DNA of 64,000 nt from the NCBI RefSeq assembly GCF_024979315.1, contig NZ_JANLCK010000011.1, forward strand, positions 1-64,000. The letters are read 5' to 3'. Source of the DNA: Herbiconiux oxytropis. GTDB taxonomy: Bacteria; Actinomycetota; Actinomycetes; Actinomycetales; Microbacteriaceae. The position numbers and the translations under genes are program-made. Below the pieces are notes generated by a model. The model had not been told where the DNA came from. It did no database searches and worked only from the letters and a program-made list of their open reading frames with translations. Below, piece after piece: positions 25,933 through 60,291 of the stretch (positions are counted from its first letter, which is position 1; each line of letters opens with the position of its first letter).

Positions 25933-26802
25933 TCAGAGCTCGCTGAGCTCGCCCCGCAGGATCGAGTCGCCCGAGTGGGTGGGGTCGCCGTCGTCGGTCT
26001 CGGCCGAGATGTCGACCAGGGAGTACTGCGCCAGATCGATCCCCGAGGGGACGTCGAAGCGGCCCTCCCGGCCGTCGAGGAAACCGATGCTCACAAGGCC
26101 CGTGCCGTCGCCGCGGATGAGCCAGACCTCGCGGAGCGGTGCCTCGCCACCTCCGGCTGCCGGGTCGACGGCCGGATCGACGGCGGCGTCGACATCGACC
26201 ACGACCTGGCGGCGTCCGTCGCCCGACTGCTCCACGACCGCGCTGCCGCGCGCATCCGGCCAGTCGGGGAACGGGGCCAGTTCGGCTCCTGCCACCGCGA
26301 TACCGCGCGGGGACTGCTGCGAGCCCTGCCACCAGACGCCGACGCCGGCGCCCGCGACGAGGCCGAGCACGAGCGCCGCCCCGGCGAGTGGCGCCCAGAG
26401 GCGGGCGCGACGGCGGGAGGCAGGCTTCCGGGTGGCCAGGTGGGACGAGGCGGCGGGCGCTGCCGCGCGGGTCGCTGCGGGGCTGGTCGCTGCAGGGCTG
26501 GTCCCTGCGGGGCTGGTCGCCGCGGGGCTGGTCTCTGCAGGGCTGGTCGCTGCGGGCGCCGATCCGCTCGCCGGGAGGTCGATGGAGAGCTGGAGCTCGT
26601 CGTGGATGCGGGCCCACACCGCGGCGGCGGGGTCGACGAGGGGTTCGGCGTCGGCGGCGCGAGCATGCTGCACCGTGCGGGTGAGGGCGTCGAGCTCGTC
26701 GGAGCACACGGCGCAGGAGGCGAGGTGCGCGCGCTCGCGGTCGGTCGCCGTCGTGTCGCCCAGCGCGATCAGCGCGAGCGCATCCGGATCAGTGTGTTCC
26801 AT
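25933..26802 (-). CDS. rskA: Anti-sigma-K factor RskA-like protein
   Basis: 289 residues. The N-terminal zinc-binding anti-sigma domain has H-x3-C-x2-C (HLASCAVC). A linker of five repeated ATSPx units is followed by a transmembrane helix ([20 protein letters not shown]) and an extracellular RskA-type domain ([21 protein letters not shown]). It would hold the SigK-like factor inactive at the membrane. The ATG overlaps the end of the sigma gene by 14 bp, and GGAGGTG provides a strong ribosome site. Release probably needs regulated proteolysis, as in mycobacterial RskA (family knowledge). Confidence 0.88.
26474..26548 (-). repeat. Five 15-bp tandem repeats encoding ATSPx
   Basis: Units related to GCTGCGGGGCTGGTC, with one or two differences each, encode a Thr-Ser-Pro-Ala linker in the anti-sigma factor. 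The copy number may vary between strains. Confidence 0.85.
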
Positions 26803-33744: not shown

Positions 33745-35547
33745 TCAGGCGCGGTCGCGGTCCCGCAGGCGGTCGTCGCGGTACTCGTCGCAGGTCTCGG
33801 TGCCTGCCGCGATACGCTCCTCGCGCTGGCGCAGCTCCACCCGGCGGATCTTGCCCGAGATCGTCTTCGGCAGCTCGAAGAACTCCACCCGCCGCACCCG
33901 CTGGAACGGAGCGAGCGCCTCCCGGGCGAACAGCAGGATCGACTCCGCCGTCGCCGCATCCGGAGCATGACCGGCCGCGAGCGCGATGTACGCCTTCGGC
34001 ACGGCCAGCCGCAGGTCGTCCGGTGCCGGCACGATCGCCGCCTCCACCACCGCCGGGTGCTCGATCAGCACGCTCTCGAGCTCGAACGGGCTGATCTTGT
34101 AGTCGGAGGCCTTGAAGACGTCGTCGGTGCGGCCGATGTAGGTGAGGTACCCATCGGCGTCACGCGACGCGAGGTCGCCCGTGTGGAAGCGCCCGCCGAC
34201 GGTCGCCTCGGCGTTCCGCTCCTCATCGGCCACGTAGCCCGTCATCAGGTTGAGCGGTCGCGATCCCGAGAGCTCCAGGCAGATCTCGCCCTCGTCGGTG
34301 TGCTCCCCCGTGAGCGGATCGACGAGCACCACGGGGCAGCCAGGCAACGGCCGCCCCATCGACCCGTCCTTGATCGGCTGCCCGGGCGAGTTCGCCACGA
34401 TCGCGGTCATCTCGGTCTGGCCGTAGCCGTCGCGGATGTCGATCCCCCACTGACGCCGCACCTGCCCGATCACCTCGGGGTTCAGCGGCTCGCCGGCCGA
34501 GACGAGTTCTCGCAGCACCCCGCACCCCTCACCCGCCGTGAGGTCGCTCTGGATGAGCATCCGCCACACCGTCGGCGGCGCGCAGAAGGAGGTGATGCCC
34601 TCGGTGCGGAGGGTCGTGAGCATCCGCTCGGGGTCGAACCGGGTGTAGTTCGACACGAAGATGGTGGCCTCGGCGATCCACGGCGCGAAGAAGCAGCTCC
34701 AGGCGTGCTTCGCCCACCCCGGCGAGCTGATGGCGAGGTGCACGTCGCCCGGGCGGAGCCCCAGCCAGTACATCGTGCTGAGATGCCCCACCGGGTACGA
34801 CACCTGGGTGTGCTCCACGAGCTTGGGCTTCGACGTGGTGCCCGACGTGAAGTAGTGCAGCAGCGGGTCCCCGGGCGCGGTGCCGGGATGCCCCAGCGGC
34901 CCCACCTCCTTCTCGAAGGCTTCCTCATAGACCGCCCACTCCCGACCTTCCCTCGAGACGTCACTTCTCACGCCATCCCGGGCGTCTTCGTGTGAGAGGT
35001 GACGGCTCGGCTGAACGCGGATGCCGGTGAACGGGAGGGTGACCTGGTCGAACTTGGGGGTGTCGTCGGCCGCCGCGATCACGAAGCGCACCCGACCGCG
35101 CTCGAGGCGGTTCTGCAGCTCGTCGCCGCCGAAGGCGACGGTGGTGGGCAGGATGACCGCGCCGATCTTGATGAGCGCGAGCATCGACTCCCAGAGCTCC
35201 ACCTGGTTGCCGAGCATGAGCATGACCGCGTCGCCCTTCGAGACGCCGACGTCGCGGAGCCACACTCCGAGCTGGTCGGAGCGGGTGGCCATCTCGTCGA
35301 AGGAGCGCGTGGTGCGCGATCCGTCCTCCTCCACGATCACGAGGGCGGGCGCGTCGTTGCCGCGGGCGATGGCATCGAACCAGTCGATGCCCCAGTTGAA
35401 GGCCGGGCCGATGGCGGGCCAGGCGAAGCCGGCGGCGGCCTCGACCGGATGCTCGCGGAGCCTGATCAGCCTGTCCCGCACCGAGCGGATGGCCTCGGTG
35501 GCGGGGGCGGGAGCGGGGTTCGGGGCCGTGGCGGCGGTGCCTGTCAT
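33745..35547 (-). CDS. Acyl-CoA synthetase (AMP-binding) containing a palindromic insert
   Basis: 600 residues. Motifs: YFTSGTTSKPKLVEHTQ, GWAKHAWSCFFAPW, DGYGQTEMTAIVANS, FHTGDLASRDADGYLTYIGR and the C-terminal TISGKIRR lysine region. This is the acetyl/medium-chain acyl-CoA synthetase-like group. Residues 180-198 (RHLSHEDARDGVRSDVSREG) are encoded by a palindromic repeat whose other copy is intergenic; it falls between a strand and the WAVYEEAFEKEVGPL helix, probably in a surface loop. The frame stays open, so the protein may still work. ATG at 35547. Confidence 0.88.
   Translation of the reverse strand: MTGTAATAPNPAPAPATEAIRSVRDRLIRLREHPVEAAAGFAWPAIGPAFNWGIDWFDAIARGNDAPALVIVEEDGSRTTRSFDEMATRSDQLGVWLRDVGVSKGDAVMLMLGNQVELWESMLALIKIGAVILPTTVAFGGDELQNRLERGRVRFVIAAADDTPKFDQVTLPFTGIRVQPSRHLSHEDARDGVRSDVSREGREWAVYEEAFEKEVGPLGHPGTAPGDPLLHYFTSGTTSKPKLVEHTQVSYPVGHLSTMYWLGLRPGDVHLAISSPGWAKHAWSCFFAPWIAEATIFVSNYTRFDPERMLTTLRTEGITSFCAPPTVWRMLIQSDLTAGEGCGVLRELVSAGEPLNPEVIGQVRRQWGIDIRDGYGQTEMTAIVANSPGQPIKDGSMGRPLPGCPVVLVDPLTGEHTDEGEICLELSGSRPLNLMTGYVADEERNAEATVGGRFHTGDLASRDADGYLTYIGRTDDVFKASDYKISPFELESVLIEHPAVVEAAIVPAPDDLRLAVPKAYIALAAGHAPDAATAESILLFAREALAPFQRVRRVEFFELPKTISGKIRRVELRQREERIAAGTETCDEYRDDRLRDRDRA
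34954..35009. repeat. Palindromic element copy B, inside a coding region
   Basis: Left arm CGAGACGTCACTTCTCAC (34954-34971), 20-nt loop, right arm GTGAGAGGTGACGGCTCG (34992-35009), two mismatches. It shares stem sequence, loop length and the ACGT/ACGG mismatch with the intergenic copy at 60228-60291. It is read through in frame in the acyl-CoA synthetase gene. Confidence 0.8.
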
Positions 35548-36747: not shown

Positions 36748-36776
36748 ACCGAGGCGCAGCCCCGCCGTCCCGTTCA

Positions 36777-36835
36777 GAACCGCACTCGTCGCGGCAACCG
36801 ACGCCTCATAGGGCCCGGATGCCGCGACGAGTGCG
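36777..36835. terminator. Long-stem palindrome between convergent genes
   Basis: CGCACTCGTCGCGGCA (36781-36796) pairs perfectly with TGCCGCGACGAGTGCG (36820-36835) across a 23-nt loop; weaker pairing extends outward. It probably terminates both genes; the right side continues with TTTTC. Confidence 0.6.
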
Positions 36836-36856
36836 TTTTCGAACCAGAAAGTCGGC

Positions 36857-48222: not shown

Positions 48223-48291
48223 GTGAGTCGCGTCGAAGTGTCCTCATTCCGCCCGAGAAGGGCCGGGTGACGACACTTCGGCGCGACTCAC
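48223..48291. repeat. Long-stem palindrome after the Clp gene
   Basis: GTGAGTCGCGTCGAAGTGTC (48223-48242) and GACACTTCGGCGCGACTCAC (48272-48291), 20-bp arms with one mismatch (a wobble pair) and a 29-nt loop. It lies 26 nt past the Clp stop and may end its transcript. Similar in design to the palindromes at 36777 and 60228. Confidence 0.75.
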
Positions 48292-60227: not shown

Positions 60228-60291
60228 CTGTCGAGACGTCACTTTCCACACATCCTGCGACGCGGTGGCGTGGAAAGTGACGGCTCGACAG
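60228..60291. repeat. Palindromic element copy A, intergenic
   Basis: Two 22-nt arms (60228-60249 and 60270-60291) with one mismatch and a 20-nt loop. Core TCGAGACGTCACTTTCCAC / GTGGAAAGTGACGGCTCGA. Shares sequence and architecture with the copy inside the acyl-CoA synthetase gene at 34954-35009. It lies between the SPFH gene end and the LigD-type gene start. Confidence 0.85.

Follow-up and report, generated by a model that had tools for sequence, protein, structure and literature searches.

Within a 64,000-nucleotide stretch of the Herbiconiux oxytropis genome (the window), a gene for an acyl-CoA synthetase is read in frame through a palindrome whose counterpart lies between two other genes. 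The question raised by this locus is what kind of element the palindrome is, and what could have carried it into a protein-coding gene. Below, the genome of the window is designated G000, the nearest relative compared is G008, and L numbers denote individual loci.

The palindrome in the synthetase gene

Both palindromes named by the initial annotation are present in the window (Table 1). The protein encoded by the interrupted gene matches PF00501 (E 9.9e-61) and PF13193 (E 7.6e-16), and resembles acyl-CoA synthetases and ligases of solved structure. The palindrome within it had been placed at 34954-35009 and at residues 180-198; the unit exists and is indeed read through in frame, but its full extent is slightly wider, covering codons 179-200 (translated QPSRHLSHEDARDGVRSDVSRE).

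Table 1. Palindromic elements of family 1 and the interrupted gene, in window coordinates
Feature	Coordinates	Strand	Remarks
Family-1 palindromic element, 64 nt	34950..35013	+	Arms 34950-34973 and 34990-35013, loop 34974-34989
Acyl-CoA synthetase gene, 600 aa	33745..35547	-	ORF with AMP-binding and AMP-binding_C; hosts the in-frame element
Second window copy of the family-1 element	60228..60291	+	Between two minus-strand genes

The synthetase copy scored 64.6 bits on the plus strand with covariance model R1, which was built from 21 copies of the element. Its stem comprises 24 pairs, 18 of them Watson-Crick and three G-T, and the RNA fold z values are -3.4 for the plus strand and -2.2 for the minus strand. 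The second window copy is the top R1 match of the whole genome (78.5 bits), with Watson-Crick pairing in 22 of 24 stem pairs and fold z values of -7.7 and -9.0. The arms of the two copies are identical at 37 of 48 positions, which bears out the claimed match of the stems, and the stem mismatch said to be identical in both copies (ACGTC on one side, ACGGC on the other) was confirmed. The loops, 16 nt by our delimitation, agree at 5 of 16 positions, and the match reported for a 20-nt loop is therefore true of its length, not of its sequence. A known RNA family was ruled out by an Rfam search of ten sources (the window and nine loci), which returned a tRNA for the window, an FMN riboswitch for L038, and no match to the element.

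A genus-wide palindrome family

The 12-base arm core GAGACGTCACTT, with at most one mismatch, occurs 43 times in the genome, compared with nine occurrences of the reversed control pattern; in the window, it was observed three times (0.29 expected). Model R1 gave 72 matches in G000, corresponding to 36 places, each read on both strands. The excess of the core and the covariance-model matches rule out a chance palindrome. The element consists of two 24-nt arms around a 16-nt unconserved loop, and is exactly 64 nt long in 35 of the 36 copies. Between copies, identity averages 76% in the outer arms and 79% in the inner arms; it rises to 88% in the core and falls to 35% in the loop. The consensus starts CTGCCGAG and finishes CTCGGCAG.

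Covariation was assessed in an alignment of 52 elements, 35 from G000 and 17 from 11 other genomes of the genus; this alignment (A2) left out the single 63-nt copy of G000 and six relatives, i.e., L079-L081 (match length other than 64 nt), L071 (out of register), and the two copies of G008 (L059 and L072). Both sides of the stem change in 18 of 24 pairs, with 155 such cells, a result matched by none of 500 shuffles and well above slid controls. Three stem pairs are invariant, and this points to a constraint on the sequence in addition to the structure. A bias in the orientation of the elements was also considered, and was dropped because contig orientation is arbitrary.

When R1 was applied with stricter filters to 60 genomes (E <= 1e-3), matches were found in 14 of 16 genomes of the genus and in none of 44 outside it. 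With a broader model, 14 of 394 genomes of the class (G000 included), belonging to nine of 138 genera, gave matches. Exact arms were found in named records of Herbiconiux ginsengi, H. solani, Herbiconiux MAG nzgw90, and Microlunatus speluncae. By eye, several class-level matches from other actinobacteria (L333, L336, L341) contain related half-units in tandem as well as inverted, like mosaic REP arrays.

Two in-frame insertions

The insert in the synthetase is common to G000 and G008, whose proteins are 95% identical; none of the 29 homologues inspected from other genera has it (the family search gave matches in 57 genomes including G000; 29 loci were inspected and the other 27 left out). Eight hits within the genus that are 58-60% identical (L084-L091) were set aside as probable paralogues and are uncounted. 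The nearest homologue outside the genus (76% identity) has five residues against 24 in G000 at this place, which amounts to 57 nt. The element is thus not an ancestral segment of the synthetase, an explanation ruled out by its lack in the 29 homologues. Both the dispersed family and the in-frame insertion that had been proposed from the window are upheld, since the core does recur elsewhere in the genome and the segment is not common to all synthetase homologues.

The second coding copy of G000 (C12:108361-108424) lies in frame in a variable-length loop of a luciferase-like monooxygenase (PF00296). It is translated LPKRHFSRENAALGAESDVSAE, in the same reading frame as the synthetase copy, and both copies are open in frame. 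The insert is missing in all 21 homologues and at the corresponding site of G008, and the difference from the nearest homologue (87% identity) is 48 nt. One of the 21 homologues, L157 of G010, has its own longer loop at the place of the insert, which by eye is different from the family-1 palindrome. At both coding insertions, the gain is less than 64 nt, and some local sequence therefore seems to have been lost or replaced.

A predicted nuclease gene bracketed by the palindrome

The reading offered by the initial annotation is partly supported and is incomplete: the most important feature lies outside the window, namely a nuclease gene that matches the palindromes and is bracketed by them. On contig C5 of G000, two family-1 copies about 1 kb apart enclose one ORF, of which 305 aa were used; the frame continues into the downstream hairpin, to 322 codons. 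The G000 protein matches REase_MTES_1575 weakly (E 0.00057; 20.3 bits against a curated cut-off of 38.2). Among 16 aligned members, 15 match DUF559 and 14 match MTES_1575 at E <= 0.05. Residues D236, E247, H253, D263, and R266, which we take to be of catalytic type, are invariant in all 43 ORFs of at least 240 aa without internal stops. On these sequence matches, the gene (ca. 300 aa) is predicted to encode a C-terminal Vsr/DUF559-like PD-(D/E)XK nuclease motif, while its middle part (residues 61-146) weakly resembles AbiEi-type proteins (E 0.0017 with PADLOC, and 0.0027). A profile search of solved structures with the nuclease gave no meaningful match. The gene that follows the G000 ORF is on the opposite strand, and at this locus no toxin gene lies behind it.

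Nuclease matches (49 in all 16 genomes of the genus) fall in 46 loci, and all were scanned for hairpins. The score threshold of 13 was fixed in the scan of the nuclease loci and then applied to control genes; control genes were delimited by called starts and stops and nuclease loci by tblastn ends, and nuclease genes lying within the control stretches were retained. Hairpins were found on both sides in 19 of 46 loci versus 0 of 663 control genes (Fisher 4e-25), and on at least one side in 39 of 46 loci versus 79 of 663 controls (Fisher 2e-26); in 27 loci the two sides do not both carry such a hairpin, and seven have none on either. Since a good number of the 46 loci are alleles occupying shared positions, they are not independent of one another, but the difference from 0 of 663 is large all the same. 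With model R2, applied to the first 30 loci, matches were obtained in 16 of 30 nuclease loci and in three of 32 control loci.

The two hairpins of a locus match each other. At a score of at least 11, the pair shares an 8-mer in 28 of 28 two-hairpin loci, compared with 136 of 756 cross-locus pairs. Nuclease identity is correlated with the similarity of flanking hairpins (Mantel r = 0.38, n 41, 0 of 5000 permutations). Of the 29 loci whose downstream hairpin is strong, 13 (e.g., L095 and L345) have a nuclease frame that ends inside the hairpin or beyond its start, and the downstream hairpin may supply the stop codon of the nuclease where the frame enters it.

Divergent nuclease alleles at one chromosomal site

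On both sides, the sequence flanking the G000 nuclease can be aligned, at 80-96% identity, with nuclease loci from eleven further genomes of the genus. The nucleases at this syntenic site are 46-54% identical to that of G000 and have differing hairpins. In the comparison with G008, the flanks are 96.5 and 94.7% identical, the nuclease is 51% identical, and the hairpins belong to different families.

At the G000 site, the left hairpin occupies positions 1364-1427 and the right hairpin positions 2417-2480 of the locus. In four of five pairwise comparisons, homology on the left is lost at 1348-1360, no more than about 20 nt from the outer edge of the left hairpin; on the right it returns at 2476-2490, where the right hairpin ends, in three of five and inside the gene in a fourth. 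Homology therefore stops at both outer edges in three of the five comparisons. In the fifth, with G008, the alignment is continuous at 84%, so that divergence in place is possible. The allele difference may have arisen through recombinational replacement or through very rapid divergence in place.

For 23 sampled dispersed elements, the best-matching nuclease hairpin was in the same genome in six cases (1.7 expected) and in another genome in 17, at a low score in some of them; the elements were sampled with the G000-family model, a choice that may favour old copies. Allele replacement could be the cause of the 17 best matches in other genomes. G006 has a nuclease with one hairpin (score 14) and G009 has nuclease matches, and neither genome has a dispersed copy under R1. 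A nuclease lies beside the sampled element in one of 25 class-level or pattern loci. Beyond the genus, matching hairpin pairs of other sequence bracket the nuclease in L166 (another genus of the same family) and in an Arthrobacter plasmid (L392), while a hairpin on one side was found at two further Arthrobacter plasmid loci and on one phage-like contig from faeces. A search of a phage collection yielded one distant nuclease match with a hairpin on one side, and a search of viral contigs for the nuclease gave nothing informative.

Turnover of palindromes between G000 and G008

Shared loci of G000 and G008 are mostly 91-97% identical. At the G008 places matching 16 G000 copies, a family-1 hairpin is present, with one pair (L116/L177) just 81% identical. 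For 14 of the other 20 copies, alignment of the flanks resolved the G008 site; the remaining six (L095 twice, L096, L098, L121, L125) were left out. Half of the 14 resolved sites carry a hairpin of a different family (family 2, CACGAGTGG...); one carries a third family together with its nuclease, one a degenerate family-1 hairpin, and five have no hairpin of these families. A scan of 399 kb of G008 revealed seven family-1-like and four family-2-like hairpins, one of each being doubtful by eye. At such a low density, a different family at seven of 14 sites is far above random coincidence. Four of the 20 G008 loci fetched have no partner among the G000 element loci, and none of the four corresponding places in G000, two of them with one well-aligned flank only, contains a family-1 copy. 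The family-2 core was not found in about 568 kb of partly overlapping G000 sequence.

Two further observations concern individual sites. L119, L234, and L247 represent one orthologous gene end in G000, G008, and G015; the arms differ, and an unusual TCAGAA core (for TCACTT) is common to all three, as if the outer arms had been rewritten in a hairpin that was itself inherited. At L243, which in G000 corresponds to the family-1 element L193 of G008, there is GCGAGTGGGCACT, a single half arm resembling family 2.

Other repeats in the window

The window contains three more repeats. A long hairpin at 48223-48291 (GTGAGTCGCGTCGAAGTGTC...) shares a 20-nt arm with the hairpin at 2536-2610 of L388, about 300 nt from a G008 nuclease homologue, and the window may therefore hold a copy of a second nuclease-associated family. 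A 73-nt hairpin at 36772-36844 (GTTCAGAACCGCAC...) has similar counterparts in G008 (L310, 18664-18736; L316, 9068-9144), and is perhaps a further dispersed palindrome family. A G+C-rich repeat at 26440-26559 consists of six copies in 15-nt steps.

Position of the copies and alternative roles

Gene context was determined with a simple gene caller based on codon usage. Of 36 copies, 16 are between convergent genes, 18 between tandem genes, none between divergent genes, and two inside ORFs; a called ORF overlaps the edge of three of the 34 extragenic copies. Divergent pairs make up 61 of 363 gene pairs in 400 kb of G000, and the lack of copies between them has P = 0.002 by gene pairs and 5e-8 by intergenic bases. 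The copies are enriched between convergent gene pairs (P = 4e-5), and a called stop codon lies within 30 nt of 33 of the 34. No target-site duplication was recognised when filled and other sites were compared, the flanks being too variable. At L098, L105, and L116 (contigs C14, C30, and C28 of G000), three paralogous genes, presumably for cell-wall-binding-repeat proteins, have a family-1 copy near the stop in each case, and two of these copies have the same loop.

Positions just behind stop codons are those of intrinsic terminators, and the palindromes could be bidirectional terminators, or stabilisers of mRNA 3' ends, that were selected and spread by ordinary recombination, with the nuclease gene merely having two of them. 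The strong stems with covariation agree with this, as does the different hairpin family at half of the resolved gene ends in G008, as if position outweighed sequence. We nevertheless consider this reading unlikely. Terminators need neither a shared primary sequence nor a fixed 16-nt loop, and the matching pairs at every two-hairpin nuclease locus, like the two copies in frame inside genes, are not what it predicts. Long hairpins are also not general at gene ends, since 400 kb of contig C1 contains eight of score at least 15, compared with one per control in two Markov controls. Inspected by eye, the 36 flanks show no obvious T-tract behind the element; actinobacterial terminators may lack a U-tract.

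Somewhat less probable still is the view that the palindromes are operator-like sites, i.e., that the protein autoregulates its gene by binding two 24-bp half-sites through its AbiEi-like part, with the dispersed copies being extra sites, regulatory or self-marking, and not mobile. The weak AbiEi matches and the hairpin of score at least 13 found 40-186 nt before the gene match in 29 of 46 loci fit such a role. So does the layout of 24 + 16 + 24 nt, which is close to that of AbiEi and Rv2827c, for which PMC7319586 describes binding to paired inverted repeats in the promoters, each of 23 bp and with 3 or 13 bp between them. An operator, however, is not expected at the 3' end of the gene, where the second matching hairpin lies, and the dispersed copies are at gene ends, never between divergent genes. 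That the palindrome is mobilised by a Y1 (RAYT) transposase as a classical REP/REPIN, or as a MITE by some unrelated transposase with its gene elsewhere, is highly improbable: the extragenic inverted doublet with its spacer and lineage-specific variants is that of the REPIN picture outlined in PMC3116915, but a search for PF01797 (Y1, IS200/IS605-type), the one transposase profile used and positive as a control in five of 14 named genomes, found it in one of 16 genomes of the genus (G001) and not in G000 or G008, the consensus has no GTAG foot, and no target duplication was recognised.

A putative two-part system

Our preferred reading is that the palindrome is a REPIN-like non-autonomous element whose probable partner is a nuclease of the PD-(D/E)XK type and not a Y1 transposase. 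The palindrome would be the dispersed, non-autonomous part of the system, and the nuclease gene bracketed by two copies of its own palindrome would be the other part. The protein would first recognise its cognate palindrome, either as an extruded hairpin or as two 24-bp half-sites at fixed spacing in the duplex, the latter alternative being suggested by the resemblance of the spacing to AbiEi-type operator pairs. A nick or cut at the palindrome would follow, and repair or replication would copy the 64-nt unit to new places. Copies would persist mainly at gene ends, where a hairpin would do little harm and may end transcripts; an occasional copy would survive within a protein loop that tolerates it, in frame, as seen in the window. 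Whenever a different allele arose at the chromosomal site of the nuclease gene, by replacement or by divergence, a new palindrome family would begin to appear, sometimes at the same gene ends, and the old family would decay. We infer the nuclease activity, the recognition and copying steps by which the nuclease would move the palindrome, and the cause and direction of the allele change.

Among the readings weighed, this pairing of palindrome and nuclease ranks first, terminators second, and operator-like sites third. A bolder formulation may be considered tentatively, with somewhat less than even confidence: a new intragenomic pair of element and enzyme, in which a Vsr/DUF559-type nuclease, whose divergent alleles occupy a fixed site, spreads a 64-nt palindrome of its own through the genome, a new allele overwrites old palindromes at the same gene ends, and pairs exist in several actinobacterial groups, occasionally adding in-frame peptides to proteins. 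The established enzyme partners of REP-type palindromes are Y1 transposases, called RAYTs. The system may be new in kind, as its enzyme class is unrelated to that of the RAYTs and no such pair was met in the literature search; the titles and abstract openings covered by that search, which left subscription papers mostly outside its scope, describe no nuclease-palindrome pair.

If the preferred reading is true, a PD-(D/E)XK-type nuclease would be a second, independent kind of palindrome partner, giving a concrete enzyme-substrate pair, and a possible function would be suggested for DUF559-like orphan genes of actinobacteria. G000 and G008, with their different alleles, would provide a natural series for following family turnover site by site. 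Should the nuclease be irrelevant, a genus-wide palindrome family with rare in-frame insertion remains, which is of more modest interest.

Comparison with known systems

EDxHD homing endonucleases are akin to the Vsr fold, and we know of none with bracketing palindromes that have dispersed copies. EDxHD is one of six known homing endonuclease families according to PMC6083498, and PMC3710099 describes MTES_1575 as a Vsr-type domain that forms part of a multidomain HEPN protein. AbiEi-type antitoxins and DUF559/MTES_1575 nucleases share with our protein the C-terminal nuclease motif, the weak AbiEi match, and the 23-24 bp inverted repeats upstream of the gene. In contrast to the AbiEi type IV antitoxin, the G000 copy has no toxin gene behind it, and its repeats are at both ends of the gene and dispersed.

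Rickettsia palindromic elements (RPE), named by the initial annotation as a precedent for the synthetase copy, also insert in frame in protein genes, and to that extent the comparison holds. RPE are about 150 bp long and common in ORFs according to the review PMC10969869, whereas the present element is 64 nt long, differs in sequence, belongs to an unrelated host, and is exceptional in coding regions (two of 36 copies in ORFs).

CGTC-tagged REPs, as presented in PMC3733652, are likewise dispersed palindromes found mostly downstream of coding regions, with some inside genes, and their authors found no dedicated transposase for them. They have an unpaired CGTC at one end; in family 1, CGTC is inside the paired stem (columns 10-13).

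The closest parallel is with REPIN/REP elements and their RAYT (REPtron). Membership of that system was rejected on the enzyme, as G000 and G008 have no Y1 transposase, and on the GTAG tag. Further differences are the Vsr/DUF559-like nuclease in place of the Y1 HUH transposase, a copy number in the tens, and divergent alleles at one syntenic site. The likenesses are in architecture: conserved arms form an inverted doublet around a variable loop at fixed spacing, the units are dispersed and mostly extragenic, and variants are lineage-specific. As in the REPIN-RAYT systems outlined in PMC3116915 and PMC8049555, a dedicated enzyme gene is bracketed by, and matched to, the dispersed inverted doublet, the place of the transposase being taken here by a different, putative nuclease.
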